64,000 bases of DNA from Polytrichum commune (Eukaryota > Streptophyta > Polytrichopsida > Polytrichales > Polytrichaceae): assembly GCA_950295325.1 (NCBI GenBank), contig OX485808.1, positions 7,938,501-8,002,500 of the forward strand, given 5' to 3'. Below, in pieces: positions 2,551 through 63,251 of the stretch. Each line of letters opens with the position of its first letter. Positions within the stretch are counted from its first letter, which is position 1. Under the pieces are notes generated by a model. The model was not told the origin of the DNA. It saw nothing but the letters and a program-made list of their open reading frames with translations, and did no database searches. The position numbers and the translations under genes were made by a program.

Positions 2551-2870
2551 CCTGTGCGTTAACGCACAGGGTTTATATGTCCAACTACAGGTCTACCAAA
2601 GTTGGGTGCGAGGTTTGGGTCGTTCGACCCAAACCATGCTCACAGTGGGAAACTCAAGTATGTGAGCGGAGAGCGGAGAGCGGAGATTGGAGAGCGGAAA
2701 ATTTAGATTTTGTTGGGTAATTTTAGGAGAAGCAGTGCCTATTTCCGTGGAATTAGAGATAGTTTGAATTCTATATTTGGAAAGGTACCCCCATTCCCGT
2801 GGACATAATAACCCAGAATTGTTTGAGAAACCAACGGATCCTATAGGCGTGGAAGATTGCATTTGTTATC
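2551..2870 (-). repeat. Dispersed repeat carrying family C and family A palindromes
   Basis: Contains a perfect family C palindrome at 2551-2570 (CCTGTGCGTT then its complement) and a family A palindrome at 2613-2634 (arm GTTTGGGTCG, centre TT), extended by one more base pair on each side. Next to them is a GAGCGGA-type purine repeat at about 2655-2700. The same sequence order appears in reverse at 19047-19230: CTCCGCTCT repeats, then family A with the same CATGCTCACAG flank. The two loci are therefore copies of one repeat rather than independent palindrome insertions. Confidence 0.7.
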
Positions 2871-2879
2871 AAACATCTT

Positions 2880-3640
2880 ATAGTATATGTTTTCAAATGT
2901 ATCATATTAAATTAGGGCTGACGTCACCAAATTGAAATCAAAATACCATACACAAAATATTTTATTGGTCAACAAAATGTAGCCAACCTCAAGACTTACA
3001 AAAATGGGTAGTTAGTTAAAATAACTATATACTCTAGTTTAGGGCCATCTACACCCTATCTGCCGGGCATGTCCAATATGGGTAAAATGATCCAAAGAAC
3101 ATGCCATAAAACTCCGTCGCACCATAACAGCCTTCCAATTCAGTCCTTAGCTTAGCCAAAGACCTCAAAGACAAATCCCCCAAGTCCAACCTTAGAATCC
3201 TCTTGGAAATTTTTGAGGTGACGTGCCGGCTCTTTGAGAACAACATGAATTTCAATTTAAAAAGTTTGACGAGGTTATGTTCGCGTGCCAAACAAAACTT
3301 CCAATTGCTATATAGCAATTGGGATTGGAAGACGGCCAATGTGATTAGTGTGCACAACCATAAAATAAACCATCCACACTAATAGAAAGTATGGTCCCCC
3401 TATAACTAAGATCTCACACTAAGAGCCGAGAGCTAGATTGTTTTGTGACTAGAAGTTAAGAGATCCGAACGATGAAGAAAAAATAAAGAATGCAATGCGG
3501 GTTGACATATGAATATGAAATAATGGAAAGAAAGAATGAAACTTGCGCCGGATATCAAAAATAAAACCAACACACAACTTTTATTAAAGCCGGATAACAA
3601 CAACAAACGGAGTTATAATCTCCAAAACCAAAATGATAAA
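2880..3640. other. Non-coding stretch downstream of the ParB-like gene
   Basis: No gene that I can support. A 102-codon open frame on the minus strand (3049-3357) has no recognisable domain and no clear splice partner. This stretch holds the 3' flank of the minus-strand gene that ends at 3641. Confidence 0.4.
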
Positions 3641-6600
3641 CTAAGGGCTTGGAGAACATTCCCTATCACTCTCCTCACCCTCATTTGCTTCTAACAAGAA
3701 AAGATTTCGTGTTCCACGCGAGAAATGACGAACGCGAGGAGGAGATGGGGACTCCGCCTTCGCAAAACAATCCGCCATTGCACTAGCATACGGGGGAAGC
3801 TCAAACGGCTTCGGAGGACTTGAAAACATGTCTCGACGAATGACTGCGACCTCCGCTGGCTCTCTAAACACCCAAGCAAAAGGATTAGAAACATGATGAC
3901 ACTAGAAAATGAGAATTTGAAATCAAAGCAAACATGGCAAAATATAGAAAGCAAACTTACGCACAAAGAAATCCGAATGCCCTCTTGGTCATCTTTTGAG
4001 GAGGATCAAAGATAGATGTAGACGGTGCGGCAACTGAGCGAGATATACGCGCAGGTTGGGGATCGCGCATGGGGAGTAGGAGTGAATTGAAAATGACGGG
4101 GTCACTCTCAAGGGCCACAATATGCCGCTCAAGGGAGCGACATGCTGTAATCGAACCACCTAAAGCAAAGAGAGGTAAAATGTTAGTATGAAAACTAGTC
4201 AAGGAAAAATAATGGAAAATTCAAAGTAAGGATGAAGTTGAAAAAGAAGGCGTACCTACACCACACTGCCAGTCCATAATAACATCATTCTTGTTGGTGA
4301 GAGTAGCGAGAAGGATGGAAAAAAAAACAGGATGCTTCTCACGGGCACCTCGCCAAGGTACCCCATCACTGCGCATCGTCTGGCTCTTCTCATCGGTGAA
4401 GGTATTCAACCATCCATCTCGTTGGAGGTTGTAACCATACTCTTGTATGGCCTCCTCCCGCACTCTAAGAACGGAGTTAACACGAACAAGAACTTTGATG
4501 TTGAACTTCCGAGTCTGCAACAATGAAAATGAAATTGAATTGAAATGAAATGGAATTGAAATTGAATTGAAATTGAAATGATAAGCAATACGGAAGGGGA
4601 AGAGAGGGAGACTTGCTTACCACTCCAGAGGGAACAACGGGAGATTGGAGGTTTAAATCATTCATTCCAAACCAATCTTCCGCGACGTAGAAGTCATAAG
4701 TGTGTGCCCAATCGAAAATACTCCTAGAAACACTGGCACTCGCACAATGGGCAAGAACAAGGACACCATGATCATAGAGGTTAGATTTCGCAAATGCAAA
4801 AAGACACTCATAGTATGATTCATGGAGCTTGTTCCAAGCAGGAACATCGGTGGAGATGTTCGGCACCGGCAAATTTTCGGGAATGTCGGCGAAGAGCAAA
4901 TCGAGGCCCTTGTGAGTTGTAGTCGAGGTGTTCACACGGGAACGACCTGCCCCAACCTGCAATTGAAACTTCATGAGAAAACAAGAAGGAAAGAAATAAA
5001 CAAAGCAAAGGAAAAAAAATTGAGAATTGACGAAGGCAAGTATACAAACCTTGGCAATGAACTCTTGGATGCGGGTATATACGGGCAGGGGACCTCCGGC
5101 AACCTCGGAATCCAGCATTAGTTGAACCATGTCCACATTTTCGATGAGGGTAAGCGTGTTAGTGGCATCCGAAGAGGTGGCACTGGTATCCAAGAGAGCG
5201 GCCTTCCTCTTGCGAGGCAAAGAGAGGAGAGAAGTGCCACTATGAGATGGAGTGGCAAGAGATTGTGGATGAAATGCAGATGGAGTAACAGAAGGGGCAA
5301 GAGAGGGAGCAACGGAGGGAGCGATAGATGGACTGTGTGGAAGGGTGGGTGGCTCAACCGGGGTCTTAGAAGCAGACCGAGTGAGAATTTGGGAAGATGC
5401 TTGAGTGGCGGTCTTCTTTGCTCTGCCCTTTCTCCTTGGTGCCTTAGGAGGAGGAGGGGGAAGCTCAACGATGTCAGGGTCCTCCAAGGTAACAATGTTA
5501 TTATCCAGAGCACTACCCACAAGGCTAGCAAACAAAGCCTTCTCTTCCCCGGGGACAAATCCTGCAGCACAATCCAAGTACCATCCACCACCCTGCAAGT
5601 GCAATTCGGAAAACTTGTTTGTTTGCGCGGTCGTATACACGCAGAGGCTAGAAAAAATATTCACCCAGTCCGAGAGGTAGTCCGGCAAGGAAGATGAGGC
5701 CAATGCATTCTTCACAACCAATTCTCTCATGATATACCTACATGACAAAACAAGAATGTAAGAAAACCAACAAAACGAGCAAGAAATGACATTAAGGAGA
5801 GGTGCAAAGTGGAGGATAGATGTATTACTGATAGGCTACACGCTTGATAGCGAGAGCCCCCTCGTCGAACTCCAAGAGATTATCACCTTTGGCAAATGCG
5901 ATGTCATGCTTATTGCCGAGATAAGGCTTGAAGGCCTTGTCCCAAAGGACAATCCGCCAATGATCAACGTACTCACGAGGGCGCAAGATAGTTTCTGATG
6001 CGTCCCAATCAATGTCGACGGAGAGGCTCTCCTCTAAGGTCTCAATTTCAACCGCGACTTCTTTCTCCAACTGCAGAGAAGGAGATGATTAGATATGAGA
6101 TAAATGGAATAGAGGAAAATGAAAATGAAGAAGGCCGAGGAATGGATTTACTTGAGCCCAGAAGGACGCCTTGTGTAGCCAGTCGTCCAAAGCCCTCTCC
6201 CTCATAGGCTTGTCGACGGAGAACTTGTTATCTAACCTTTCACGAAGGGGGGCGTTCCACCAGTGAAGCCACTTAGCTTTGAACGAAGCTTCGACCGGGC
6301 ATGTGACAATTTTTTGCAATTTTTCAATTGTCATGTCCGTCGAAGAGAACTCATTAAAATGACGGTCAATCTATGCACAAAATAAAAATGATTTGAGTTC
6401 AAAAGAGTAATAGAGTTGAAGAGTGATTTGGATGAATTGCGTTCAAGAGTGATTTGAGTTCAAAAGAGTACCTCATGAAAGAAATCCTCTCCATTGTCAG
6501 GGTGTGCAACGGATATGTACTTCTCAAAAGAACGGGCCCGAATACTTTTGATTGTCCTCTCCTGGGCCTTGGTCATAACATTCCAAATCTCAGTGGCCGA

Positions 6601-7814
6601 CCTCTCCGCAACGGGTGTGGTCTCACGGTAATGCCTCACTACAAGGTCCGCTTGAGCCGAAATGTCTCTCTGCAAGAAATGACCTTGTGAGTTCATATAA
6701 TCGGTATGGAAATTATCTATGTTGGAAGCTCTAAATGATTGAATGCATAAAACCATACCTTGTAAAGAAACTTAACGAACACATCCGCGGTCAAGATGTA
6801 CCAAGTTGGGCGACTCTCCTTTATCTTCTCGCATGCTTTGTAGTCAGATGGCGATATAAGATCCTTGAAGGTGGACAACTCTAACCTCCCAAAAGTGCGG
6901 ATTCGAAGGAGCTTGGCCGGAATGTTTGCCTTGACATAATCATGCTCGGTTGACCTGAGAAAAAATATGTGAGGAACGTGAGCTGAAAAGAATGGAAAAG
7001 AATTGAAACAAAAATGAAAAATGAATAAAAAAAATGAATGAGCTTACCAATTAATGTCGCTCATGGCATTGAGGAATATACCGGTGTATCCTCTAGGGTC
7101 AACAACAATGCAATCCACCGAGATATGCCAACTCTTGTCATCGGCGTGGTGGTTATTGATGTGTCTCCACCAAGCGGTGAGACGATGATTGCCTTCCCAG
7201 ACGAAGAACATCTTCCCGGCGAAATGTGCAAGATCCGGATCCTCATTGAGCTTGGCGTCAAATTCTGCGGAGGCCATAATGCCAGGGGGAATGGGGAGGT
7301 CCACGGGAACGTCGTTGAAAGAAGACACGTAAAGAACCCGATCACCCTCTCGGTATCCCATTACAAATTCACATTCCAAGCGCTGCACCTCAACCTCACT
7401 GATAGGACGGACGAGAGGGAGGGCTCTCAAGCGGCATAAAGGAATGGATAAGCGGGACTTACATGTTGGCTTAATCCGAAGGCGTTGGATAACACCAATG
7501 GAGTCCTCCTTTTGTGATTTCCGAAGCTCAAGCTCACACACCACGGGATCCGTGTTGGCAACTGCTTGAACGGCATCTTCGCTCATTGCGAGAGCCTAAC
7601 AAAAACACAAACAATAAAACCATGCTTAGAAAGCTAGAACTCAAAAAACTTGCTTAACAAATTATTCAACAACTATCCAACTCACCTCTACTTGTAATGG
7701 GCCCTGCGAATTGAGACTCTCAACCTGCACAGCTTCAACTTCAACCGCGGGGGCCGCAAGAACAACATCCTCTCCAGATTGGGGTTGCGATTGCGCAACC
7801 TGTGAAGAGTCCAT
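3641..7814 (-). CDS. ParB/Srx-like and beta-class methyltransferase-like fusion protein, 11 exons
   Basis: Exons (minus): 7814-7686, 7595-7048, 6954-6759, 6669-6472, 6370-6152, 6070-5829, 5737-5050, 4956-4621, 4514-4256, 4159-3961, 3863-3641. All introns are GT-AG, all phases match, and the sum is 3237 bp (1078 residues plus stop) without an internal stop. A ParB-box-like motif FVWEGNHRLTAWW lies near residue 170, in the part that begins with a Glu/Val-rich leader. A Ser/Pro-rich linker with basic patches (KAPRRKGRAKK) is in exon 7. Exon 8 has GLDLLFADIPEN (about 757-768) where beta-class N4/N6 methyltransferases carry their DPPY motif. Exons 9-10 give DVIMDWQCGVGGS (about 929-941) followed by LERHIVALESDP, resembling the SAM-binding motif (VLDPF-GSGT, then R-IGIE). 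Motif order (IV before I) fits the beta class. Catalytic DPPY reads DIPE, so activity is doubtful. Domain calls come from motif reading; no search was run. Confidence 0.75.
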
Positions 7815-8700
7815 ATCCTAAGAACATGGAGAAAATGAGAATTTCACAAAGAAAAGTCAATAACTTCGTAACTATAAAGAAACAAATCCTCACAAAAACA
7901 ATACAAGGCCGAGAGCAAACTACAAATGGAAATGGCCGAATGCTAAGTCAAGTGCTCAACTCTAGCACTAACCTACCTACGAATGAGAGGCCTCGGATCC
8001 GAGGCCTCTTTTCCTACCTCCTCCTTATGCACTACCCAAAAGAAAAAGGCCGAGAGAAATCTTATGTGAACATAGCAGTTTGACTTTTCAAGCACATACA
8101 TTGTCTCCAAAATGAGGCCTCGGATCCGAGGCCTCTTCACAAACCTCCTACTCATGTAGTACCCAAAACAAGAAGGCCGAGAGCAATCTTACACGAACAT
8201 AACATTTTGATTTTTCTAGCATAAAATTGACACAAACATGAGGCCTCGGATCCGAGGCCTCTTCCCAAAACACATACTTATTCACTTCCCAAAACAAGAA
8301 GGCCGAGAGGATTCGAAAATGAACATAAGATTTTCATTTTTCAAGCACATACCTTGACACAAAAATGAGGCCTCGGATCCGAGGCCTCTTCACAAAGTAC
8401 CTACTTATGCACTACCCAAAACAAGAGGGCCAAGCGCATTCAAAAATGAACATAACATTTTAACTTTTCATGCACATACCTTGACACAAAAATGAGGCCT
8501 CGGATCCGAGGCCTCTTCCGAATGCCCCTCCTTATGAAATACATACTACAGAAAATGGCCGAGAGAATTAAAAAATGAACCTAACATTTTCATTTTTCAA
8601 GCACACAACCTGACTCAAAAATGAGGCCTCGGATCCGAGGCCTCTTCCAAATGCCCCTCCTTGATGATTTTAAAACCTAACCAATTTACTTGTTACATGG

Positions 8701-9176
8701 CTCACGGGTGTTCACCCGTGAGGTTCACATTTGATGATGTTCCAGGGGAGGTCACTCCATTGCCAAGTTGCATCACCAAAATGGGTCAAAATTTTCTCAA
8801 ATTTTTTTGGGACGTAGATATACATGATATCTATTACGGAGTAAAATATCATGACCAAATTTGATGACCATATTTTTCTAGAAAACATACCATTTCTACC
8901 TAGAATGACGCAGAATTCAACTAAAACAATTACTAGAAAAAATGAAGATGACAAAAAATTTCAAAAAAATATACAAAAGATATAATCAATAGTTATGAAT
9001 ATAGAGAAAAAAAATCATAATTTTTAAAAATATTTGACATGGAGACATCTCCCCGTGATGATGCTAAATCCTACCCAAGTTACCTGTTACATGGCCCACG
9101 GGTGTTCACCCGTGGGGCACACATTTGATGATGTTAAAACCTAACCAAATTACTTGTTACATGGCCCACGGGTGTT
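8701..9176. repeat. Family D palindromes, three copies (fourth at 12061)
   Basis: 22-bp palindromes with centre TT lie at 8701-8722, 9095-9116 and 9155-9176, with a fourth at 12061-12082. The common arm is CCCACGGGTG. The copy at 8701 has CTCACGGGTG and the copy at 12061 has CCCACGGGCG; in each case the opposite arm carries the matching change, so pairing is kept. All four follow the same flank (ACTTGTTACATGG or a near match) and three are followed by GGGCAC. Confidence 0.9.
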
Positions 9177-10635
9177 CACCCGTGGGGCACAAGGCAGAGA
9201 GCAAGGAACCAAAAAAGCAGGAAAGTTGACATTCTATTAGTTTGAGAAATCAAGAACCTCACCTCTCTCAAAACCCTACCTTTCACATACTCAAACTTAC
9301 ACAAATAGGAGGCTTCGGATCCGAGGCCTCTTCCCCTAGCTGGTTCTTATGCACTACAGAAAACAAGACAAGACCGAGAGCAATTGATGTGCACATAACA
9401 TTTTGATTTTTCAAGCACAAACCTACCCACAAATAAGAGGCCTCGGATCCGAGGCCTCTTCCTATGGCTCCCACTTATGCACTACACAATAGAAGAAATG
9501 GCCGATAGCAAGGAATCAAGAAAGCAAGAAAGTTGACATTCCATTAGTTTGAGAAATCAAGAACCTCGCCTCTCTCAAAACCCTACCTCTCACATACTCA
9601 AACTTACACAAATATGAGGCCTCGGATCCGAGGCCTCTTCCCCTAGCTGCTTCTTATGCACTACACAAAACAAGACAAGGCCGAGAGCAATTGATGTGCA
9701 CATAACATTTTGATTTTTCAAGCACAAACCTACCCACAAATAAGAGGCCTCGGATCCGAGGCCTCTTCCTATGGCTCCCACTTATGCACTACACAATAGA
9801 AGAAATGGCCGATAGCAAGGAATCAAGAAAGCAAGAAAGTTGACATTCCATTAGTTTGAGAAATCAAGAACCTCGCCTCTCTCAAAACCCTACCTCTCAC
9901 ATACTCAAACTTACACAAACAAGAGGCCTCGGATCCGAGGCCTCTTCACAAACCTCCTACTCATGTAGTACCCAAAACAAGAAGGCCGAGAGTAATCTTA
10001 CACGAACATAACATTTTGATTTTTCTTAAATAAAATTGACTCAAACATGAGGCCTCGGATCCGAGGCCTCTTCCCAAAACACATACTTATTCACTACCCA
10101 AAACAAGAAGGCCAAGAGCATTCAAAAATGAACATGAGATTTTCATTTTTCAAGCACATACCTTGACACAAAAATGAGGCCTCGTATCCGAGGCCTCTTC
10201 ACAAAGTACCTACTTATGCACTACCCAAAACAAGAAGGCCAAGAGCATTCAAAAATGAACATAAGATTTTCATTTTTCAAGCACATACCTTGACACAAAA
10301 ATGAGGCCTCGGATCCGAGGCCTCTTCACAAAGTACCTACTTATGCACTACCCAAAACAAGAAGGCCAAGAGCATTAAAAAATGAACATAAGATTTTCAT
10401 TTTTCAAGCACATACCTTGACACAAAAATGAGGCCTCGGATCCGAGGCCTCTTCCGAATGCCCCTCCTTATGAAATACATACTACAGAAAATGGCCGAGA
10501 GAATTCAAAAATGAACCTAACATTTTGATTTTTCAAGCACAAACCTTGACACAAAAAAGAGGCCTCGGATCCGAGGCCTCTTCCCAAAGCTCCTACTTAT
10601 GCACTTAACAAAACACATTTCCCCCCCCCCCCGCA

Positions 10636-11300
10636 GCTTCAGACCTCCATATCTTCCACGTGTGGTCTCCAAATCTAACAATCAACCACTCTATCGTCAT
10701 CTACGTGAAATGTAGATGCCGATGGACACCTCACTTGCCCCATTTGGGCAAAACTCAAGGAAGTTATGCCTGTTTAAACATTCGCAGTCCCGGGAGCCAC
10801 TCCCAGGGGACTGCTGATCGAGGGCACTAAAAGGAGGCCTCGGATCCGAGGCCTCATTTTCAAACTAGTGTACATACTCAAAAACAAGCAAAGTGCCTCA
10901 TTCATACAAGCTATACGTTGAATCAAAAAACCTCAAGTGGCCTCGGCTGAGAGGCCTCGGATCCGAGGGCTCACACACAAAGTAATTTACGTACTCCAAA
11001 CCAACCATAGTGCCTCATCCGTACACTAGTTTTGGAACACATAAAAGAGGCCTCGGATCCGAGGCCTCTTCTCCTAGCTTCTACATATGCACTTAACAAA
11101 ACACATTTCCCCCCCCCGGCAGCTTCAGACCTCCATATCTTCCACATGTGGTCTCCGAATCTAACAATCAACCACTCTATCGTCATCTACGTGAAATGTA
11201 GATGCCGATGGACACCTCACTTGCCCCATTTGGGCAAAAATCAAGGAAGTTATGCCTGTTTGAACATTCGGAGTCCCGGGAGCCACTCCCTGGGGACTGC
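10636..11300. repeat. Duplicated non-palindromic block within the array
   Basis: A block of about 190 bp starting at CAGCTTCAGACCTCCATATC occurs at about 10634-10825 and again at about 11119-11310, each after a run of C and each ending in an imperfect hairpin around AGTCCCGGGAG and CTCCC-GGGGACT. The copies are nearly identical, which points to recent local duplication of an array segment of about 485 bp. Confidence 0.8.
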
Positions 11301-13078
11301 TGATCGAGGGCACTAAAAGGAGGCCTCGGATCCGAGGCCTCATTTTCAAACTAGTTTACATACTCAAAAACAAGCAAAGTGCCTCATTCATACAAGCTAT
11401 ACGTTGAATCAAAAAACCTCAAGTGGCCTCGGCCGAGAGGCCTCGGATCCGAGGCCTTACACACAAACTAGTTTACATACTCAAAACCAACCAAAGTGCC
11501 TCTTCCGTACACTTGTTTTGGAACACATAAGAGAGGCCTCGGATCCGAGGCCTCATTCACAAACTAGTTTACATCCTCAAAAACAAGCAAAGTGCCTCAT
11601 TCATACAAGTTATACTTTGAATCAAAAAACCTCAAGTGGCCTCGGCCGAGAGGCCTCGGATCCGAGGCCTTACACACAAACTAGTTTACATACTCAAAAC
11701 CAACCAAAGTGCCTCTTCCGTACACTTGTTTTGGAACACATAAAAGAGGCCTCGGATCCGAGGCCTCATTCACAAACTAGTTTACATACTCAAAACCAAC
11801 CAAAGTGCCTCTTCTCTACACTTGTTTTGGAACACATAAAAGAGGCCTCGGATCCGAGGCCTCATTCACAAACTAGTTTACATCCTCAAAAACAAGCAAA
11901 GTGCCTCATTCATACAAGTTATACTTTGAATCAAAAAACCTCAAGTGGCCTCGGCCGAGAGGCCTCGGATCCGAGGCCTCACACACAAACTAGTTTACAT
12001 ACTCAGAACCAACCAAAGTGCCTCATAAAGACATGCCTAACCAAGTTACTTGTTACATGGCCCACGGGCGTTCGCCCGTGGGGCACAAGGCAGAGAGCAA
12101 GGAATCAAAAATGGAAGAAAGTTGACATTCCATTAGTTTGAGAAATCAAGAACCTCGCCTCTCTCAAAACCCTACCTCTCACATACTCAAACTTACACAA
12201 ATATGAGGCCTCGGATCCGAGGCCTCTTGCCCTAGCTCGTTCTTGTGCACTACACAAAACAAGACAAGGCCGAGAGCAATTGATGTGCACATAACATTTT
12301 GATTTTTCAAGCACAAACCTACCCACAAATAAGAGGCCTCGGATCCGAGGCCTCTTCCTATGGCTCCCACTTATGCACTACACAATAGAAGAAATGGCCG
12401 AGAGCAAGGAATCAAGAAAGCAAGAAAGTTGACATTCCATTAGTTTGAGAAATCAAGAACCTCACCTCTCTCAAAACCCTACCTCTCACATACTCAAACT
12501 TACACAAATAAGAGGCCTCGGATCCGAGGCCTCTTCCCCTAGCTCCTTCTTATGCACTACACAAAACAAGACAAGGGCGAGAGCAATTGATGTGCACATA
12601 ACATTTTGATTTTTCAAGCACAAACCTACCCACAAATAAGAGGCCTCGGATCCGAGGCCTCTTCCTATGGCTCCCACTTATGCACTACACAATAGAAGAA
12701 ATGGCCGAGAGCAAGGAATCAAGAAAGCAAGAAAGTTGACATTCTATTAGGTTGAGAAATCAAGAACCTCACCTCCCTCAAAACCCTACCTCTCACATAC
12801 TCAAACTTACACAAATATGAGGCCTCGGATCCGAGGCCTCTTGCCCTAGCTCCTTCTTGTGCACTACACAAAACGAGACAAGGCCGAGAGCAACATGATG
12901 TGGACATAACCTTTTGATTTTTCAAGCACAAACATACCTTTCCTAACATGTTCCTAAACCCAAATCAAGACAAGGCCGAAAGCAAGTCAAGCTGATATTC
13001 CAAATACTATGAGAAATCAAGGTGATAGAAAGCAAAAACGTTGGCGAACATAGCTTGGCCGAGATCCCGACACCTTAC

Positions 13079-14027
13079 CAGAATTTGGAGTATGCCCTCC
13101 ACTGAAGCCCCTATATTGGCGCCACTATCTTCCGAGGTCCCGTCCTCTGTCGGCGATATTGGAGTGCTTCTCGAATCTCCGAGGTTTACTTGCGCCATTC
13201 CTCTCCCGCGGCCACGCCCTCGCCTTGATGTTTGTTGTGTTCCGCCCGCCTTGCTTCGCAGAAATCTTGAAGCAGGGGTCACAACATCCACACTTAGGGT
13301 TTCTGCGCATGGGTCTCCTCCTTCAGCTCTTTCGCGGCCTCCCAACAAATTTGATTTCAAATCTTCCTTTGCCGCTTTCCTCTTGGACGCCTTCATTTTT
13401 TCTCTTGCTTGAATCGTTGGTTGTCCCGACATCGGTTCTCGCTCTTCTAACGCCTTCTCAATTTGTTGTGCTACCTCCTTGTTGTCTTCTTCATAGATAT
13501 TTCCACTATCTCCACTCCCCCCCTCTTCCTATATTTAAGATAAAACAATGTTTATAACAATGATGACAAACCATAATATCTAAAAGAAAAGTTGTTTCAC
13601 AGTTGAATATGTTCTACCATTTTCATTATGTGCTCAAACAACTGAATATATGGAGAACCCGAAGAATACGTACGACACTTGTAGAGTTTGTCTCTTCGCG
13701 TGAGTCCTCTTGGATGCTGTCGTTTCCCAACTCCTCCACTTCTGCCATTGGTTGCGCTTTACTTCCGTCCGCCTCTTCTACAATCGGTGATAAATGAAAA
13801 GGCCGAATCCCACAGTCTAACCTCCACGAAGGTTTCCGCAGGTCCTTTATGCTTTGGCTCAAATCCTCGGGCGTCCCACGGCCCTCAATTGGCGCTTTCC
13901 TTGCCTGTGACTTTTGTGTCCTCACTGTCTTTCTCTTCTTATCAGTGTAATGTGTAGACGATCGCCTCCTCTTCTTTTTCTTAGATGGTTCCGTTGTCGG
14001 AGGTTGTGAATTGCCTATTTCCTTCAT
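13079..14027 (-). CDS. Basic, low-complexity protein divergent from the MULE transposase (3' exons unresolved)
   Basis: Two exons join in phase: 14027-13674 (118 codons, donor GTACGT) and 13528-13079 (150 codons, acceptor TATAG, donor GTAAGG). The first exon has a lysine/arginine-rich patch (PSKKKKRRRSS, then DKKRKTVRTQK) typical of a nuclear localisation signal. The second has an RGRGRGRG run and acidic stretches. The exon that should follow 13079 was not found; it may lie in or near the palindrome array. The gene starts about 320 bp from the transposase start and is transcribed away from it. A related first exon sits in the same place beside the second MULE copy (20070-20352), suggesting a second gene of the same mobile element. 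Function unknown. Confidence 0.55.
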
Positions 14028-14346
14028 GTGTTCAACCCTCCCGCAATTCAGACCTATTCGCTCTATTTCCTTTCCACAACCTCACCACATCAAACTCACA
14101 CATTGGAAAGAAAGTGAGCAATCGCATTCTTCTCAGTATATAATTGCAATACCTCCCGATGGGAGGCGCGCTTTACTATCTGACAACCATCTTTGTAATT
14201 AGGGGTATCTTTTTTTAGGATGCCTGACAGTTTTGTCTCCTTCCTGATATTCATGCGTATTTGTTTATAACTTCATCGTCATCACCATTCTCCTTCTCTA
14301 TGCATCTTTGCATCTTTGTTCCTTCACGTTTGCTTTCTCTGCCTTC

Positions 14347-17300
14347 ATGGCTTCCACCTCAATTCTTCCTCCCGTCTCTGAGATGGCCGAACTTCGTTCA
14401 CATGGCATCGGGGTCCCTATTATATTCCCCATTGGTGCACAAGGTATTGTTGTTGTCTCGGAGCTTCATCTTAGCATTAGGTTCTCTTTGAAAGCTAGTA
14501 CAATATGGGTAGAGCGTGAGATCTACCATCCTGATACTGGATTGCTCGTTCATACCTTCCATGAGACCTCCAAGATAACTGACAATGGCAATGTAGTGTG
14601 GGAGCTTGGCGCGGGAAAGTATAGGGTTTGTGGCTGGCCAGATTCTCAGATGGAAGTGTCAACAGAAATCCTTCCTCCTCTTCGATCATCCACTGTTGCC
14701 TTTAGCACACCCCCCGTAATAAGCGTCAAGACCGAGCCTGGTGTAGACAACGTTATAGACTTGTCTGATTCTTTGAGTGAAGATGTACCAGTGTATAAGG
14801 TTGCTGTCCATGATTCCCCTCATTTGTTTCCCTTTGCATCCTACATAACGCCTTCTCCATCTAGCTCTGTCCCTTCAACTCCTTCGGTCCCTACGTCTAA
14901 ACCTCCTCAAACTATTGTTCAATGTCTTCGTCGTCTTGGCTCTATGCCCGGTAGTAAGAACGTCCTCAAGAAAATAGATTACGATAAAATCAAAATCCAA
15001 GAAGTTAATCACCTTCCCCCTCGTTTCGATGGCACCCAGTTATTTGTCCTCCCTGCAGCAGAAGTCTCTTCATCTCAAACCAGGGCCAAGTCGTTGGACG
15101 GCATGGACAAGCAATATGATGGCCATGTTTGGACTAAGACTCAAACCACCAACATTACAAACGACGTTGGCCTTGCATTTCGTTCCTCTACCTGTGTTGG
15201 CCATCTCCAATGCCAAAACCCGAGTTGTGATTACCTTCAACGCGCCCATCGTACCTCTAAGGTCAATGACACAGAATTTGAAGGTTTCACTAAAGATCCT
15301 TTCCGTCTCTCTGGCATTGTGCCATCCGGATCTACTCTTGTCTGCAGGATCTGTAAAGAGCCTCCCAAATGCATTGCACTATGCGAGGCCAAAATCTTCT
15401 ACGTCCATGGGAAGGAGTCATCCCAAAGAGCCTGCATTCATCTCGGTTCTCATCAACATCCAGTGAAGGTTGGAGACTGCAGAGACAGTCGGAAGCGTAT
15501 CAATGCACTTCTTGAGGAGCACGTTGAACGTACGCCTCAAGCCACCCACAGCAAGATCGTCCTTGAAGCTAGCAAGGACATTGTTGGTGAGTTTCTCCTT
15601 TCTGGCGATAATGACACACACCGTCTCTTCTCTTTAAAAGAGCTTGAACCTGTTTTTGAGAGCTGTAGAGAGTTGAATTCCCCAAACCTTCGCTCTAAGG
15701 TTACCTCTTTCAAATATTTGCGGAGGTTTGGTGTTATGGATGGCATCGCAAAGCTCCGAGGCGTTAGCAATTGGGCCTACGTCCAACGGAACCAATTCCC
15801 AGGACAAGGTGACGATACAGACAAGGTGTTCGTCTTCAAGATGTCGGAGGTTGGTCCTGGAAGTGGAGTGGATTTGGTTCGTCGGATGCAACCGGGTGGG
15901 GACCTGGAGAACGCGTGGATGATGTCCGATCACGTGAAGCGGGTCAAAGGGTGGACCACCATGGCCGCTCATGTGTACGATGGGACTTATCAACGGGTCA
16001 TGACCATTTCATGTTGTGATTTCCAATCGGAGGATAAGGATGCCCAAGTTCTCTTCTGGCAGAACCTCAACCACGTCATGGCCCGACACGGTATCCCACA
16101 TCCAAACTTTATAGGCTTCATGGCGGACAGTGCCCAAGCCAATTGGAACGCTGTTCGCATTGTATATGGTTTGGGGGATCCCAAAGTTCCAATGGAGGGT
16201 CGTGAGCGCACTTGTTTTTTCCATTGGAAACAATCGCTCGAAAAACATACGAAATCGTATATAAAGCATGAGTTACAAGACCAACATAGACATCTTTGCC
16301 TTCAATATCGAAATGCGTCATCTATGGAAGAGGCTGAGACTAGGTACCTAGCTATCAAGGCTTGGTGGGCGTCATCGAATTGTACAAGTGAGGACGGTCT
16401 CAAGCATCTTCAGCTCTGGCTTGCTTTTTGGCACTTCCGCTACCTTCAATGGGGTGGTTTCATGGAACTGGTACATCTCCTTCATAATTCATTATTGGTT
16501 TTTCTTGGATTCGATTTCCTCTCTCTGTACATTTATATTAATACTTGATTTCTCCAATCAGGAAAAGGTTTTAACCCAAGACCAATTGGCCGAGATGCCG
16601 TCGTGCAATCTTGCGGAGTCCGTCCACAACAAATGGCTTCAAGCCTCCGGCAACAAGGGTGGAGATCTATACGTGGCTACGGTTGACGACTACATTCGCG
16701 CCTTCTTACAAGTTGTTGCATACTACCAGTTCCTTAAAGGTGGAATTGGCGGAGATGGTCCAAGCAAAGAAGAACTAAAGCTCAGGGGTGCTCAACGTCG
16801 AGCTCAGCGTACTGGCGACCCCACAGTGTTGCAGAAGGTCTTGCTTGACATGTCCGGTGGGGAAGAATTTTGCACTCGCGATCCACACCTTGAGGGCGCC
16901 GAGGTGTTTGGATTGCAGAAGCGAAGATCAGACACTCCAATTGGTGATGATGGCGAGACCCACCGCCCCGATACCGTGAACTTCTCTCGCCCTCCCCCCG
17001 GTAAGCGTGTCACTCGATCTCAACCAGAAACACTACCCACTATCATTGAGGAGTCTTCCCCCTCTGTACAAGAGGTTCAAGTGCCTTCACCTGCAGGACT
17101 TGGTTTCCAGCGTGTCACTGCCGTGCAAGAAACCAAAGTAGATGTCTCTCTTTGGCATATTGCCCGCATACCCTATACGTCTGGGAAGTCTTGTTGGGCT
17201 AATCATGCGGGCACGAAGAAGAAGTGCACCGCAAGAATCGTCACTAATAATAAGAGTGTCCCTGCGCCGACCTACACCGGTATGTGGCATCATTACAAAC

Positions 17301-18019
17301 TCCAATCTATGAAGCGCACGGACTTTGTCTTTTGCCCCGACGACATTGAGCGTTGCGTGAAGGGCCCTCGTCGGAAATGGGTCATGCCGTTCTCTGCTCA
17401 TGACCAGAAGCCTCCTATTCCCCCAATCTGGCCCGTGAAGATTGGTACCAACCTCACCCGCTCGGATATCTTCACCCTTGAGAACGCAGGTTTTCAACTC
17501 CCACCAAAGGAGCGCATCACACCGACTCAACTCTTCACCAACTCTGCTCCCCCGCTGGATATGTCTGGAATCCGTGTTCCAGAAAACCCCGACATGATCC
17601 CTCCGACAAGATTGTCCAAGCTTGTTCGGCGATCCAGTAGCGCACCTTCGGCAAAGCAGAGGCAGATGGTGGCCTCTGCTGAAGCTATGCATGGTACCGT
17701 TATGAAGTTAACTATGATCCCTCAACCGGGATTTGATTGCATTATCACACTGCAGTCCAAATCAGAACCCCAACCACCGATCTACCAAGTGACAGTCAGT
17801 TCTCCTCCAGAGTGCAACTGCGCATTTTTCTTGGATATGATTTCCAAATTCAGCCGCAAACGAAATTCTTATTTGAATTGTAAGCATTTGTATTACATTT
17901 TCATCAAGGTTTCTAATTTGGATGCGGAAGTGAATTTGTTCATTCACGCCCCGACATTTAGCTTCAACGAAGTCAAACTCATCCTCGAAGGGGGTCTTTT
18001 GACAAAGTCTATTTCTTAG
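14347..18019 (+). CDS. MULE-type transposase with C-terminal SWIM zinc finger
   Basis: Two exons, 14347-16470 and 16562-18019, joined in phase by a 91-bp GT-AG intron: about 1193 residues with no internal stop. ATGs at 14308 and 14383 are alternative starts; the related copy at 20875 aligns with the one at 14383. An N-terminal Cys/His cluster (STCVGHLQCQNPSCDYL) looks like a zinc-binding DNA-contact module. The catalytic core reads HVYDGTYQ (near residue 543), then FMADSAQANW (near 592), then RTCFFHW, matching the D, D and C/H landmarks of Mutator-like transposases. The C-terminal SWIM pattern is CNC, then NCKH about 29 residues later (about 1126-1155). Middle regions are Ser/Pro- and acidic-rich. 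It lies between a divergent basic-protein gene and a convergent charged-protein gene. It could be an active transposase or a domesticated copy; no terminal inverted repeats were identified. Confidence 0.8.
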
Positions 18020-18180
18020 GATTTATCTCAGCCTAGCAGTACTTTGGGCTATGATATATGTGTCCATTTCTGGACCTCTTGTGAAGCAATAATTGATTGA
18101 TATAATAAAGGTATAATCTCAATGATTATTTTTATTTGCTTCAAAATTTTGTATTACAATGCTTCCTATGTCTATCAACT

Positions 18181-18645
18181 CTATTTCCGTTTTGCATACT
18201 TCTTAGATGATTGCGAGGGAGGTGGACCCGGTCGAAGCAAATCCATATAAGAAATTGTCTTATCTCTCTTTCGATCCTTCAGCGGAAGATGATGCGGCGT
18301 CATTCCTCTCATCCGTTCGCGAAATGAAAGAGACTTCGAAGATTCCCCTTCCACCTTCACCTCCTCCTCCGTTTCGTTCGATTTGTCTTCATCTAAATCA
18401 ACATCCTTCTCCGGCACATCTTCCTGCATTTTTTCCTTTTTCTCATATTGTTTTTGCTCCTCCTGCACCCTCCACCTCCATGCTTGTGTAGACTGCGAAA
18501 ATGGAGTCAGCTCGTAGTCATCACTACTTTGATTTCCAGCAGCAAACTCAAATTCCGGCGATGGATTAAATGGAATATGAGGATCTCCTAGACTTCTAAT
18601 TTCCTTCTCCCATCCTAATCCAGCAAACATGTCTCTCTCATCTCC
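18181..18645 (-). CDS. Small charged protein convergent with the transposase
   Basis: Single open frame of about 154 residues from ATG 18645 (an upstream ATG at 18669 is possible) to the stop at 18181. It starts MGDERDMFAGLGWEKEIRS, has a Glu/Lys-rich middle (about residues 60-110) that probably forms a charged helix, and a basic C-terminus (DRKRDKTISYMDLLRPG, then SSKKYAKRK). It ends about 160 bp from the transposase stop, tail to tail. No domain is recognised. Its place beside the MULE gene suggests an accessory protein of the element. No equivalent was recognised after the degraded second copy. Confidence 0.5.
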   Translation of the reverse strand, partial: GDERDMFAGLGWEKEIRSLGDPHIPFNPSPEFEFAAGNQSSDDYELTPFSQSTQAWRWRVQEEQKQYEKKEKMQEDVPEKDVDLDEDKSNETEEEVKVEGESSKSLSFRERMRGMTPHHLPLKDRKRDKTISYMDLLRPGPPPSQSSKKYAKRK

Positions 18646-18699
18646 CATTGTGTGCAACTGTATATACAATTATGTTGGGTATGAGTCCAATTTATAATC

Positions 18700-19040
18700 T
18701 ATTCGGCCACAAACGATAATTGCTAAAGTCCAAGCTATAGAATAGACTCACATATAAGACAAAGAGAAAAGTGATGAATAAAAACCAAGCAAGTTTATTA
18801 TTTTGATTCCTTTGTATATTGATTGACTCATTCTTCAATTATACCAATCTCAAAAAATCCATTTTCATTGATTTTTCTTGTAGTCATCATTGGTTTTAAT
18901 AATTCAACCACCTCACGGTTTCCAAACTTAATGAGACCATTTCAAATTCAGGGTTTTTATTTTATTTTATAACCTATACATCCCACGGAAATAGGTCCAA
19001 TTTTTTTACTATTATTGTCAAATTCTAGAATATTCTTGGT
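18700..19040. other. AT-rich intergenic stretch, no gene seen
   Basis: Short AT-rich region between the charged-protein gene and the palindrome-bearing repeat. Neither coding frame nor repeat end is apparent. Confidence 0.4.
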
Positions 19041-19172
19041 ATATTCTTGGCTATTTTGGAATATCCTAATTTTAGTCTGACAAGTTTACTATTTTTATTT
19101 CCTCTACGCTCTCCGCTCTCCAAATCTCCGCTCTCCGCTCTACGCTCACATACAAGTGTCGTCCTGCTCACA

Positions 19173-19229
19173 GTTTGGGTCGTTCGACCCAAACCATGCT
19201 CACAGTTTGGGTCGAACGACCCAAACTGT
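19173..19229. repeat. Pair of family A palindromes
   Basis: Copies at 19173-19194 (centre TT) and 19205-19226 (centre AA), ten bases apart. The second extends to a 13-bp arm on each side (19202-19229). Together with the CTCCGCTCT stretch just upstream they form the inverted counterpart of the repeat at 2551-2870. Confidence 0.9.
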
Positions 19230-19440: not shown

Positions 19441-20010
19441 GCTAGAAAGTTGCCAGCGTAGACCCTGAGCGTTAACGCACAGGGTCTGCGCTGGCAACTT
19501 TCTAGCCACTGTGCGTTAGCGCATAAGGCCTGTGCGTTAGCGCATAGACCCTGTGCGTTAACGCACAGGGTCTGCGCTGGCAACTTTCTAGCCACTGTGC
19601 GTTAGCGCATAAGGCCTGTGCGTTAGCGCATAGACCCTGTGCGTTAACGCACAGGGTCTACTTGCATTTGAAAAAAACTGCCAATTGTTAACGCACAGGG
19701 TTTCTCCTCCCAACTTTTTGCGTCCTAAGTTGTTCTTATAAACCTTGTGCGTTAACGCATAGGGTTTTACCTCCCAACTTCTCGCCTCCTTAGTTGCTCT
19801 TATAAACCCTATGCGTTAACGGACAGGGTTTTTCCTCCCAATTTTTCGCCTCCTAAGTTGCTCTTATAAACCCTGTGCGTTCTCCTCCTAACTTCTAGCC
19901 TTCCTAAATTTCTGTTATATACCATGTGCATTAACGTATAGGGTTTCTCCTCTCCAATTTATAACCTCTATAAATTGCTACTACATGACATGTGAGTGAA
20001 CGTACAAGGT
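19441..20010. repeat. Family C palindrome cluster with a 66-bp near-perfect palindrome
   Basis: Family C has arm CCCTGTGCGT, centre TA, then the complement. At 19441-19506 it is the centre of a 66-bp palindrome whose 33-bp arms differ at only two positions (arms begin GCTAGAAAGTTGCCAGCG). An 86-bp unit holding one perfect and two imperfect C palindromes (GTGCGTTAGCGCAT type) is then repeated about twice (19483-19654). From about 19680 to 20010 a looser repeat of about 60-70 bp continues (TTGCTCTTATAAACCCT-GTGCGTTAACGC-AGGGTTT), with progressively degraded palindromes. Confidence 0.9.
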
Positions 20011-29224: not shown

Positions 29225-30798
29225 CTGATGGCAAAATTAAAACAAACAAAACCCAAGGGCAGGGGGGCAGGGGGGGAGCATGAGAAAATCGATATACAAT
29301 TGAGGCATACTATATCACACACAATGGCACACCATGTAATATCTCAAATGAGTTTATTATATTTCGCGTGAGCGTACAACTCTCTGTACATATAGTCCTT
29401 CGGATCCATGTATCTTTCGCCTATCGGATTACAACTAAGGAACCGGGGCACGGGTAGTCTGCTCCCCACGAGCGTTTGAATGTACTTAAGTAGGTCTAAC
29501 AAAAAGCGGTCTCGGACCTTCTCGACCGTCCACGTGGGGCAAACGATGAAGTTGGAGGTCGGGTTCAAAATGTTTTTGGAAGCGTTGTCGTCCACCATCA
29601 ACGTGTTGTCACGGGTGGGGCGAACGTCGTAGGGACAGCCGACCATGGTTGGACGCTGGTCCCATACGACTGGCTTCAAGACCTTAAGAAATTGGTTTAC
29701 GGCGGGGTTGTTGGGCTTCTTCACAACCCTGCCCTCGGGGGTGTACAATGTTTTACAAGAATCCTGTCCTAGGACCAAGCACGGGGGTTGGAGTCCCTTG
29801 AAGATGAACTCCACGACGGCCTGGGTATTCTCGGACTTCATGGAGCTCCAAATGATCACCCACCATTTGGATAGGGCGACCTGTAGGAAGCGCCGAAGCC
29901 ACGGGCGGAGGTACACTAGCTTGCTTTTGATGTACGCGGGGGGTCCATCGTAGTTGGCGTCCTCGGGCTTGCAGAAAGGCACCGTTGGGACCCTCGAACA
30001 ATGCACGCACTGGACAAGGATCCCGTTGAGGTCTAGCACGAGGAACCGGGTCTTGGGAGGCGAAGGTGGCGAGGGCAAAATCGGGGGGACCACCGCGCTG
30101 TCCTCCACACTCCTCGGAGAGGATCGGTGGGGAGCCGCGACGCTATGCTCCGAACCCTGCGGCGACGAGCGAGAGAAGGCGGCGAGGACTATGTTATGCT
30201 ATGTCCATCTCAAGCAGAACGGAAATTTTGTGCAAACACAAGAAGAATTGGACCATTGGTGGCAACAAAAACATACAAGCAGAACAACATACATTGGGAC
30301 ACGGATGCAAACATATGGGCGCCAAAAATAATAATTTTATTTTTACAAATCTCTATGTACAATTTGATTCGGGGGGGGGGGGGGGGGCGCGGTGAACGAG
30401 GGCATTCACACTATCCTAATTCTACATCTACAAAATTGGTTGCGCGCCGCCAAGGTCGAGCGTAGTCGAATGCAGGTGAGACGAAGGGGATCGCGGGGGG
30501 GGCACGTTGGGGGGAGGGGGAGCAAGTGTAGACCAGGGGGGGCAGGGGGTGTGCATTTCCTCCTAGCAAGGGGGACACGACCACGCCAACAAGACAGTGA
30601 CCCAGGAAGTTTGGGTCGGTCGACCCAAACTGGGAGGGCTCAGTGTATTACCTCGCCCTGGTCATGTCTCGACGATATGGAAGCCTCCACCGTCCCCGCT
30701 GCCCCGCCTCTCTCGCCACCGCCTTCTCCGACGACGTCAGGAACCTTCTCCTGCAAACGATCGGCATCAGGCCCTTGTCCTAAACCAATCTCCGCATG

Positions 30799-32308: not shown

Positions 32309-32399
32309 GTTTGGGTCGCCCGACCCAAACTGTCCTGCATCTGGAGAGGTGCCTTCGGACACTACAGTGGATGGTGGGTTTGGGTCGATCGACCCAAAC
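32309..32399. repeat. Two family A palindromes inside coding exon 3
   Basis: Copies at 32309-32330 (centre CC) and 32378-32399 (centre AT). On the gene's strand both are read in the same frame, giving FGSGDPN and FGSIDPN in the protein. Both are kept at the same places with the same centres in the other copy (61853-61874 and 61922-61943). Confidence 0.9.
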
Positions 32400-32412
32400 A
32401 TCCTGGGGTCGT

Positions 32413-32525
32413 CCGATTGGTGAGGGGCCCTCCACCACTTTGGCCCCCTCACCAATCGGCCCCCTTGTATCACTTGTGATATCAAGTCCCCCTCCACTAT
32501 GGGGGGCCGAAGTGGTGGAGGGCCC
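32413..32525. repeat. Nested inverted repeats inside coding exon 3
   Basis: Arms CCGATTGGTGAGGGG (32413-32427) and its complement (32445-32459) form one hairpin. The 24-25-bp arms at about 32425-32448 and 32501-32525 (GGCCCTCCACCACTT part) form a second, overlapping one. Between them is a CTTGTATCACTTGTGATATC motif that recurs at about 32735. In the protein this gives two copies of DLISQVIQG. The structure keeps the reading frame and is present in both segmental copies. Confidence 0.8.
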
Positions 32526-33642: not shown

Positions 33643-33700
33643 GTTTGGGTCGGTCGACCCAAACCTGCAAAGAGCCTAGTTTGGGTCGATCGACCCAAAC
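33643..33700. repeat. Two family A palindromes in intron 2 of the fusion gene, copy 1
   Basis: Copies at 33643-33664 (centre GT) and 33679-33700 (centre AT) near the 5' splice site of the intron (33728-33569), separated by CTGCAAAGAGCCTA. The other segmental copy has palindromes at the same two places (63193-63214 and 63230-63251), but a different spacer and a different centre in the first. Confidence 0.95.
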
Positions 33701-35149
33701 TGCTTACGAGCTATAGAAAGTCACTTACCATAGCAGCATAGACAGGTTTTGAGCCTCCGAAGACGTTGAAGATGCAGTCCCCTCTCCTCGTCAGCGTCCT
33801 CATCATTCTCATGTAAAATTCCATCCGCAGCTCATCTGCAGGATAGTTCGCATATTTAGCCTCGTCGTAGAGGCACTTGTTCGCACCCAACCCTTCTAGA
33901 ACTTGGAAGAGTTTGTCCATCCGGGATATAGGGTGGTTTGGCACCTTCAGCAACTCCGCTTTGTACACGAAGTACAAACACAAGACGTTGACGAACTTGG
34001 TCTTCTTGTCCTTCAACGTCGTGTAAGCCCCCTCCGCCGGTGCGGCGATGTAGTGAGACTTGGACACTGCATACTCCGGCTGCAATTCTAGACAAGCTCA
34101 TACACCTGCTCCGCCCTTCTATCCTCGACTATCCAAAGCCAGATATCTACCTCCCTGAACTTAGGGCTTGCATAATCGACGAAATTAGTTAAGAAGGGGT
34201 CGTAGAAGAGGGTGCTCATCGTGCCCTCAAATGAGCTTCCAGGAATATTTCTAAAATCAATCATCCCAAAAGGAAAGCGGTCCCTTGCTTTCGTCCTTAT
34301 CGCCATTCTGGCGTCTTGACCTGGCCAGCCCTGAATTTTCAAAGGCTCGAAGGTGACAAGGTTGAAGTAAGCGTCCCCTTCAAACTGGACAATCTTCTTC
34401 TCCTTGATGAAGTTCGAGAACGCACGCGCTGTGTGATCCGGAAGCGCCCGGTTCTTCCCACCTTTCACCATCTTGGCCCGCAAGAAGTCGTCCCCCGCTT
34501 CCTTTATTAGAGCCGCCATGGAGGCACTGGTGAACTTATATTCATCTTTGAATGCTCTCCAGTTAGCCCCATGAACCTCGCCGTCCACGACAATATTCCT
34601 CTCTGGCACCAATTTATGCAGCTCCTCCACGATAGTCGTCTTCTTTTTCCTGTTCTCCGTCCATTCCTTCATGGTGTAGCATGAAGGAACGAAGGATTTG
34701 GGCTTTACGAAGACAATCTTCGGGTGCACCCAACACCTCTTGGCCGTGGGTGCCACGTGCAGGATGTGCGATGCCGCCTTCTCCACCTCCGTCTCTGACA
34801 GCCCTTGAAGAGTTCTAAAGAACTCTCTCACGAGAAGCTTCATCTGCTTGAAGCGCGAGGCCAGGCTGAAGAAAGCGCCAGTATCAGGGTCGATCAAATC
34901 CCCCGTCTCGTGCTTTTCAAACACGGTTTTCCACTTCCTCCAAACTGAGTCCGATGCTGTAATCAAGTAAATCTCCCCCTTCAGGTCGCTGTATTTCTTC
35001 TGCTTGTGGCTCGAATTATCAATGGAGGAGAATTTGTTGATCATTTGGTATTTGAAATCCTGCACGTGAACAAAACAGAACATTTGAATGCGTGTTAGTT
35101 AAGTACATGTGATTTCCAAACCATATCATGACCAACATCTACAACAAGA

Positions 35150-35268
35150 GTTTGGGTCGGTCGACCCAAACTAAAAAAACACAAGACTGCAACAGTTGTT
35201 TGGGTCGATCGACCCAAACTAAAAAAAACACAAGACTGCACCAGGAGTTTGGGTCGGTCGACCCAAAC
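35150..35268. repeat. Three family A palindromes in intron 1 of the fusion gene
   Basis: Copies at 35150-35171 (centre GT), 35198-35219 (AT) and 35247-35268 (GT), separated by A-rich spacers with ACACAAGACTGCA-CAG, a repeat of about 48 bp. The last begins nine bases inside the donor site of intron 1 (35277). Confidence 0.95.
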
Positions 35269-36629
35269 AATACTCACCTCCCACTTGGGATTCTTGTCCT
35301 TCGCATTCTCCCTCTCCTTGGGAGGCCTACCATAGAACTCCCACACCTCCCGCGAGGCCATGATATTCCTTATCCATGAAGCTTGGTAGGCCCTCTTCTT
35401 GTTTCCCATATTGAAGTACCGGGAGATGTCGCTGAGTTTGGTCTCGTCGTCAGACCACACCACCAGTGCCTTCCAAACCTTCAGCTTTTCCTTCTGATTG
35501 TTGGGATCGTCCCACTCATTCATGAGTTGGATTTTCTTGGATGCCTCCACGCTGTGTTGGCCGTCTATCAGCCAAAAATCGCCCTTCTGAATTGTTGGCC
35601 ACATTTCAGGTGTAGGCATTTTCTTGAGACCCTGTGGCATCACTACAATCGTTTGCCTGTCGTCTTTAAACTGCTCGCAAACAATCTGCGCGATTATCCA
35701 GTCAACGTAGGCGTCCTCCTTTGCCCGGACACACTTCTCCGGTGGCGCTAGATGGCACTGGCTGATGTTCACGTCGAACTTGAAATCCCTGCCCATGAAA
35801 AAACAGTGGGAGCATTTCGTCGTGAAATTGTTCACAATTTTCTGCAGCTCCCCTGCATCCACCTCTTCGCCGGGCTTCGGCATGCGCAACTCCGGTGAGA
35901 CTGGCTCGTCAGTCATCACAGATGACTCTCTCGCCCTCTTGGATGGAGTTGTTTGATGGCTCCCAGAAGGTGTAGGGGTCTCACTATTCGTAGGTGTTTG
36001 GGAGGGAGTGGTCCTACGCGAGTCAGCCGGTACTGGTAGCGGCATCCTCACCGATTGAGGTCTTGACGACCCTGCTCCTTCCTCTGTGGGAGCTTTCCGC
36101 CTCACAGGTTGCTGTGATTTGGTTTTGCTTTGCAGGCCCCTGTTCAGCACGGTTATTGCATGTTTTAGTTTTGTGAACCGGCTTGAGACCTTGGTATTCG
36201 ATGTACTCCCATCGATAAATATTGTCTCCGGCTTGATAACTTCCGGTTCGACACAGGACTCTCTTGCATAGAGTGCGTCGAAAGGCTCGGAGAACTGGTG
36301 CATGAACATATGCGCGTTCTGCACAGCCGAGTTCTCGAGGATGACGTCGGTATAGTCTCCAAGAGACTGTACCGATGCGACCTCCCATCCCGTAAGAGTC
36401 GCCCAGGTGTGTTTCTCCACGGTTCCCACCTTGACAACAAAAATCATTTTGTATGTTGAGGCTTTGACTACTTGAATAGACCAAGCGAGGACAAGCCCGT
36501 CCTTAGGGGAATAGGAGTCATCCTGCGGGGTTTCGTGCTCCTGCCACAACATGTCCGGCGCAAGCATGAACCACCTTTCGCCGGGTCTTTTCTTTGGAGC
36601 CATCTGTAAGAAAATAATGCGCAAAGTTA

Positions 36630-63192: not shown

Positions 63193-63251
63193 GTTTGGGT
63201 CGATCGACCCAAACCAAAAAAATAGCCCATTTTGGGTCGATCGACCCAAAC
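63193..63251. repeat. Family A palindromes in intron 2 of copy 2
   Basis: 63193-63214 and 63230-63251, both with centre AT, separated by CAAAAAAATAGCCCA. The flanks outside the pair match copy 1 closely; the spacer does not. Confidence 0.9.

Follow-up and report, generated by a model that had tools for sequence, protein, structure and literature searches.

Genes whose products join a ParB-like domain to a DNA methylase have already been reported from transposons of algae, in a study (PMC12477816) whose accessible text cites a paper on Bostrychia and Iyer et al. 2011 as prior reports; the kind of gene considered here is, to that extent, a known one. According to the available part of another source (PMC12704722), the ParB-N6_N4 fusion is among those that are more frequent in phages, and Srx is the commonest eukaryotic representative of the ParB/Srx fold. 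In the VANDAL transposons of Arabidopsis, the targets of VANC form tandem repeats in the introns of VANC/VANB and upstream of VANA (excerpts of PMC5735166). Here we analyze a stretch of 64,000 nucleotides from the plant Polytrichum commune (GenBank assembly GCA_950295325.1, contig OX485808.1, positions 7,938,501 to 8,002,500; hereafter, the window), in which a gene encoding a protein with a ParB-like and a methyltransferase-like half is an accessory gene of a 16.5-kb DNA transposon (element 1) that resembles Mutator-like elements (MULEs).

A gene carried by a transposon present in many copies

Splicing of the 11 exons proposed in a first-pass annotation of this DNA exactly reproduced their in-phase joining into 1078 codons without a stop (3237 bases including the stop codon), with all 10 introns of the GT-AG type, and the motifs quoted there, EGNHR, DIPE, DWQCGVGGS and RHIVALESDP, are present (Table 1). 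Two close genomic copies, L005 and L006, possess the identical exon structure, again with 10 of 10 GT-AG introns. The gene model is more than chance because this structure is common to two other copies and because the ratio of nonsynonymous to synonymous substitution rates (dN/dS) is low against three divergent copies (see below).

The framing of the locus as a single plant gene turned out to be wrong. In tblastn searches of the same genome (407.8 Mb, 406.1 Mb of these in seven contigs of 42–78 Mb), in which copy counts are lower bounds, the gene product matched 206 pieces, and exon 7 matched at least 34 dispersed places with 76–99% identity, many of them with 97–99%. The genome is plant-like in content: the SAM domain of LEAFY, which is specific to plants, scores up to 120.9 bits in it and is matched in 0 of 14 control genomes. 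Wherever other copies were fetched, the gene, a palindrome array and the transposase gene were found together. The window copy is flanked on both sides by the 10-bp target duplication TGCTCACAGT. Since the insertion took place in a 32-bp tandem repeat that itself contains this 10-mer, the cleaner proof is the L005 copy, bounded on both sides by a different 10-bp duplication, GGCCAAAACC; target duplications were read in these two copies, and the right end of the third was not found in the stretch fetched. A domesticated or ordinary, single-copy host gene would account for the open frame with its plant-type introns but not for the many dispersed, often nearly identical copies within an element that has target duplications; we rejected this explanation and regard its probability as practically negligible.

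Target duplications of 9–11 bp are a criterion for MULEs, and the 10-bp duplications of both copies fall in this range. The transposase contains a CxxH motif (CFFH) and a SWIM-like CxC...CxH motif, which we take to be signs of a MULE transposase. No Pfam family, MULE included, matched the transposase above the cut-off. A genome search with the MULE transposase profile PF10551, in which 150 of 271 candidates were scored, listed 142 matches, none of them at the element. The designation “MULE-like” therefore derives from the duplications and the CxxH and SWIM-like motifs.

The window copy had been described as intact; its frame is indeed open, but an in-frame deletion of 27 bp in exon 2 (nine codons, SWSPLWQEA, compared to L005 and L006) makes this description doubtful. 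The extra 27 bases of L005 and L006 end in a GCCTC repeat, a segment matching SWSPLWQEA is present in the divergent copies L039, L040 and L041 and in two copies of a related family (family 3), and all 17 tblastn rows spanning the deletion, among the matches listed, are 8–9 codons longer than the window query. From these comparisons, the window copy evidently has lost nine residues ahead of the ParB-like box. The L005 copy is open through 1087 codons, and L006 is stopped at codon 37.

A methyltransferase-like domain with an altered motif IV

The relationship of the C-terminal part to DNA methyltransferases comes from a profile-to-profile comparison of six family sequences with twelve phage-type ParB-methylase sequences using hhalign. 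The probability was 93.7 over the full length and 97.1 for the methyltransferase domain alone (E 5e-11; ten column-shuffled controls yielded 1.5 or less), and the alignment superposes DIPE on DPPY and DWQCGVGGS on the S-adenosylmethionine (SAM) motif. Motif IV precedes motif I in the window protein, which is the order in beta-class methyltransferases. By itself, the window protein had no match in Pfam at E 10 or below and produced weak matches to the adenine-specific DNA methyltransferase DpnA (PDB 5hfj, E 0.011) and to a PHROG methyltransferase (E 0.0015). Homologues in the same genome pass the PF01555 cut-off of 26.7 bits, namely L055 (35.3), L056 (32.4) and an exon assembly of L078 (36.8), the matches of L055 and L078 spanning the motif-I end only; the window protein aligns with L055 at E 4e-25 across residues 464–988. 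These profile matches mark the C-terminal part as an N6/N4 DNA methyltransferase-like domain and bear out the earlier assignment. The likeness to phage ParB-methylase fusions that had been proposed along with it holds for this domain, which aligns; the ParB parts gave no significant alignment.

The replacement of DPPY by DIPE, also pointed out in the first-pass annotation, extends beyond the single gene to the whole family. Among the 33 family-1 loci, 30 have DIPE, and DILE, DIPK and DISE occur once each; among 12 further places, the motif reads DIPD in L055, L057 and L059, DIPY in L056, DLPE in L078, DIPE in L098–L100 and DQPE in L101–L104. Thus, D-x-P-[ED] is found in 41 of the 45 motif-IV places and DPP[YFW] in none; the broader canonical form, [DNS]PP[YFW], is likewise missing from all 33 family-1 loci and all 12 further places.

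The dN/dS values of the window gene against L039, L040 and L041 are 0.19, 0.19 and 0.15 (1025, 1026 and 981 codons, respectively), and those for exon 8, which holds motif IV, are 0.11–0.15; the last exon is laxer, at 0.42–0.51 against L039 and L040. Against closer copies the ratio rises to 0.23–0.24 (L033, L032), 0.43–0.59 (L030, L020, L006) and 1.10 (L005), as expected from the drift of recent copies after transposition. Purifying selection that includes exon 8, combined with the lack of DPP[YFW], implies that the altered motif is old and that the domain still does something. In synonymous divergence from L039 and L040, exons 2–5 exceed exons 6–10 by about twofold or more, a contrast that suggests recombination between families.

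What the domain does could still be methylation: an active enzyme with an unusual motif IV (D-x-P-E/D) might mark the DNA of the element with N6-methyladenine or N4-methylcytosine, as has been suggested for the relatives in algae, and the retention of the fold and of the SAM motif under purifying selection fits such activity. The aromatic residue of motif IV, however, stacks on the target base, and this position is acidic in 43 of the 45 places, with K in L041 and Y in L056 only; given also that DPP[YFW] is absent throughout, we consider an active methylase unlikely.

The ParB-like half

An alignment of 12 diverse members, selected from 24 that were gathered (with exons fetched from 20 lower-identity places), shows an invariant [DE]GNHRxxAW box preceded by a conserved stretch, IPLCR....P.VRP...L...F..GY.EG, which we take to be the same succession as that of Box I and Box II in ParB. 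In all 12 members, GNHR fits the GxxR nucleotide-binding motif of Box II. Among the family-1 loci, EGNHR is present in 31 of 33; L026 has EGNHH, and the match in L033 begins after the box.

Profile searches and structure prediction did not add to this motif. There was no significant ParB match in Pfam, in PDB profile searches or with hhalign (0.2–0.3%), the best Pfam and PDB rows for the ParB-like members being unrelated (MSL3 chromo-like, E 0.0088, in one of the 12 members; ribosomal eL24, E 0.027). The PHROG “ParB-like partition protein” matched 4 of the 12 members with a best E of 0.051, in the company of unrelated PHROGs matching single members at E 0.012–0.16, some of which (0.012 and 0.014) are below this value, and the same ParB-like PHROG matched an unrelated-looking second gene of the window at E 0.24. 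AlphaFold2 predictions of two ParB-like pieces, made from single sequences without an alignment, had predicted local distance difference test scores of 35–37 and were discarded as unusable. The earlier claim of a ParB/Srx domain is thus left with the GNHR box, for which we use the label “ParB-like”; at the motif level, ParB/Srx identity of the N-terminal half is plausible.

A conserved palindrome array

The accessory and transposase genes are separated by an array of a 22-bp palindrome, GAGGCCTCGGATCCGAGGCCTC, which has 1903 exact copies in the genome, compared to none for the reversed control. The array is conserved upstream of L039, L040 and L041, the proteins of which are about 70% identical to the window protein (tblastn residues 511–1005, introns read through): with up to five mismatches, these loci have 18, 21 and 17 sites, respectively, most of those at L039 and L040 bearing one fixed change. 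Agreement with the window across the 22 bp is 95, 92 and 96% (forward orientation), compared to means of 25, 23 and 38% across 40 bp of flanking sequence (means of the best, 27, 28 and 44%). The dyad is kept while the surrounding DNA largely differs, which is the pattern predicted by a symmetric protein-binding site. The one gene-free-looking palindrome cluster that was checked, at C1:2.25 Mb, chosen for the lack of a listed gene copy, sits in a copy of the element with an internally deleted gene.

The protein bound could be the transposase, with the ParB-like protein doing something else, for example, regulating transposition. Transposases often bind repeated motifs, and the array is conserved beside the transposase gene as well as beside the accessory gene; however, it is internal, more than 5 kb from either end of the element, rather than subterminal, and we judge this explanation improbable. 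Perfect palindromes of 22–28 bp in long arrays could also be expected if the arrays worked as nucleic acid, that is, as hairpin-forming RNA or DNA or as a source of small RNA. This is very unlikely, considering that the spacers diverge while the dyad is nearly unchanged, that the spacing varies between families and that the gapless palindrome has no loop.

A putative VANC-like DNA-binding protein

We tentatively propose, at slightly less than even chances, that the gene product is a sequence-specific DNA-binding protein derived from a ParB-methylase, with a putative anti-silencing role analogous to that of VANC. Under this scenario, the protein would no longer methylate DNA by the usual chemistry but would act as a dyad-symmetric, sequence-specific binder, with the 22-bp palindromes between the two divergent genes as its predicted sites. 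When bound, it might keep the promoters of the element active or counter its silencing by the host, both in cis and at sister copies, in parallel with the VANC proteins of the Arabidopsis VANDAL transposons. The ParB fold, the binding to the palindromes and the anti-silencing role are what we infer in this proposal.

Several observations, along with the lack of a significant ParB match, weigh against it. DPP[YFW] is also missing in 2 of the 10 full-length phage-type relatives (L070 and L072), so that loss of the motif is not plant-specific. The window protein, for which a Pfam search up to E 10 gave no match, likewise matches none of the VANC domains, which the accessible text of PMC5735166 gives as DUF1985/DUF287. 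The flanks of the L041 sites, with 38% agreement, are somewhat above chance. The related family of L078 has a tandem array in an intron that is not palindromic, and in family 3 each fetched upstream stretch contains only one palindrome of at least 22 bp. Finally, the observed/expected ratio of CpG in the element is not distinctive and is uninformative as a trace of past methylation.

If the VANC-like scenario is correct, plant transposons recruited a bacterial or phage type of DNA-binding and methylase architecture, lost the usual catalysis and retained binding; the problem solved by VANC would then have been solved twice, by unrelated means. The palindrome arrays and the many family members would make the code linking protein to site directly testable, and such proteins could serve as programmable epigenome tools.

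Related families and other features of the window

Searches with two further queries delineate a wider set of homologues: the family-3 ParB-like domain gave 150 scored exons of 1020 candidates (37–98% identity), and the motif-IV exon of L078 gave 150 scored of 1110 candidates (67–100% identity). There are at least four pairs of ParB-like and PF01555-like exons that lie 3–14 kb apart on one strand (C4:48.05, C2:11.84, C1:27.98 and C4:43.53 Mb). The window itself contains a second ParB/methylase-like gene, so assigned by motif (hhalign 0.3%), with DGQHS at the box (GQHS for GNHR), RNIPG at motif IV and NVFGGSK at motif I; it belongs to another transposon family, its frame is broken, and 121 copies of its 331-aa exon were scored across the genome. 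In the region of this gene, a different palindrome, TTTGGGTCGNTCGACCCAAA, occurs in introns, flanks and a reading frame, and genome-wide there are 5413 forward and 5310 reverse sites (control, 0); element 1 inserted into an array of TTTGGGTCGNTCGACCCAAA. The window also contains a third palindrome family, GTGCGTTAACGCAC, and a similar palindrome, TTGTGCGCTAGCGCACAA, is found upstream of family-3 genes. The non-palindromic intron array of L078 contradicts a general association of palindromes with the related families, which we rejected.

It is possible, albeit doubtful, that an extensive class of transposons resides in the plant nucleus, with genes that probably number in the hundreds and fall into several families. 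These transposons would use a prokaryotic-type, ParB-like, methylase-derived binder acting on parS-like palindrome arrays, and protein and palindrome would co-evolve family by family, forming a selfish system for anti-silencing (or clamp-loading) that is independent of VANC.

Some additional observations concern the surroundings of these genes. Upstream of family-3 genes, L063 and L064 contain protein-kinase-like frames, so named from the motifs GRGSYGVV and HCDLSFTN, beside the ParB-methylase gene; these may represent a further accessory gene. A segment of the window is duplicated, with 92–94% identity in the main blocks, and includes an NLI/FCP1-like phosphatase open reading frame (PF03031, 52.6 bits). 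Some small contigs in the assembly carry bacterial- or phage-like genes (L001/L053 on C12, L002/L003 on C23 and L052/L054 on C10) and are probably contamination; one of them encodes a ParB-methylase fusion with the canonical DPPY.

Table 1 Features of the window, with positions counted from its first nucleotide
Feature	Position	Strand	Remarks
DNA transposon (element 1), 16,518 bp	2647..19164		left end common to two other copies, right end to one; target duplications
Left target-site duplication, TGCTCACAGT	2637..2646		
Right target-site duplication, TGCTCACAGT	19165..19174		10-mer recurs at 19197
Left terminus	2647..2698	+	GGGAAACTCAAGTATGTGAGCG, then GAGCGGA repeats; start common to three copies; tandem repeat 2664-2698
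Right terminus	19102..19164	-	imperfect inverted counterpart: CTCTCCG repeats, CGCTCACATACAAGTGTCGTCC
ParB-like / methyltransferase-like accessory gene	3641..7814	-	1078 aa; 11 exons: 7814-7686, 7595-7048, 6954-6759, 6669-6472, 6370-6152, 6070-5829, 5737-5050, 4956-4621, 4514-4256, 4159-3961, 3863-3641
Exon 2, ParB-like domain	7048..7595	-	EGNHR box 7182-7196; 27-bp deletion upstream of box
Exon 8, methyltransferase motif IV position	4621..4956	-	DIPE at 4876-4887
Exons 9 and 10, SAM-motif region	3961..4514	-	DWQCGVGGS, ERHIVALESD
Array of 22-bp palindrome GAGGCCTCGGATCCGAGGCCTC	7987..12840		26 exact and 5 one-mismatch copies, between divergent genes
Transposase gene	14347..18019	+	exons 14347-16470, 16562-18019; 1193 aa, frame unbroken, divergent from accessory gene
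Third open reading frame	18181..18669	-	162 aa; no Pfam match above cut-off
Second ParB/methylase-like gene (by motif)	33711..36624	-	frame broken near 34088
TTTGGGTCGNTCGACCCAAA sites	2614, 19174-19208, 23175, 30610, 32379-37097, 61923-63231		
Third palindrome family, GTGCGTTAACGCAC	2551-2570, 19459-19929		
Duplicated segment	27912-34289, 56621-63840		
NLI/FCP1-like phosphatase open reading frame	29344-30108		second copy 58025-58747

Comparison with known systems

The phage ParB–N6_N4_Mtase fusions (for example, L053, L060 and L061) share with the window protein the order of domains and an alignable methyltransferase domain but differ in that their ParB parts are not significantly alignable with those of the window family. 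Of the 12 phage-type sequences extracted, 8 keep DPP[YW], two cover the ParB part only, and L070 and L072 are without the motif. No phage relatives of L055 were detected by tblastn at E 0.01. With MULE transposons, element 1 shares the 10-bp target duplication and the CxxH and SWIM-like motifs of the transposase, the difference being that its transposase has no Pfam MULE match above the cut-off.

The similarity to VANC, as far as the excerpts of PMC5735166 describe it, is that both are encoded by accessory genes of DNA transposons and that candidate target motifs form tandem repeats in non-coding parts of the element, including upstream of the transposase gene. Unlike the VANC targets, the motif here is a long palindrome, and the function is one predicted from sequence.

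The algal genes, compared by the description of their proteins in the available text of PMC12477816, are alike in encoding a protein of about 1100 aa (1104 there; 1078 in the window and 1087 in L005) with ParB-like and N4/N6 methyltransferase-like parts, on the strand opposite to the transposase gene of a large DNA transposon, which is 21.5 kb long in the algal case and 16.5 kb here. Polytrichum differs in the plant host, the 10-bp target duplication, an element that is MULE-like rather than Sola1, the non-canonical motif and the palindrome array. No ParB-methylase transposon of a land plant was found among the titles and abstract openings listed in a search of open-licence papers, which is weak evidence of absence. 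As far as this literature search shows, the plant host, the MULE-like element, the non-canonical motif IV across families and the conserved palindrome arrays are new.

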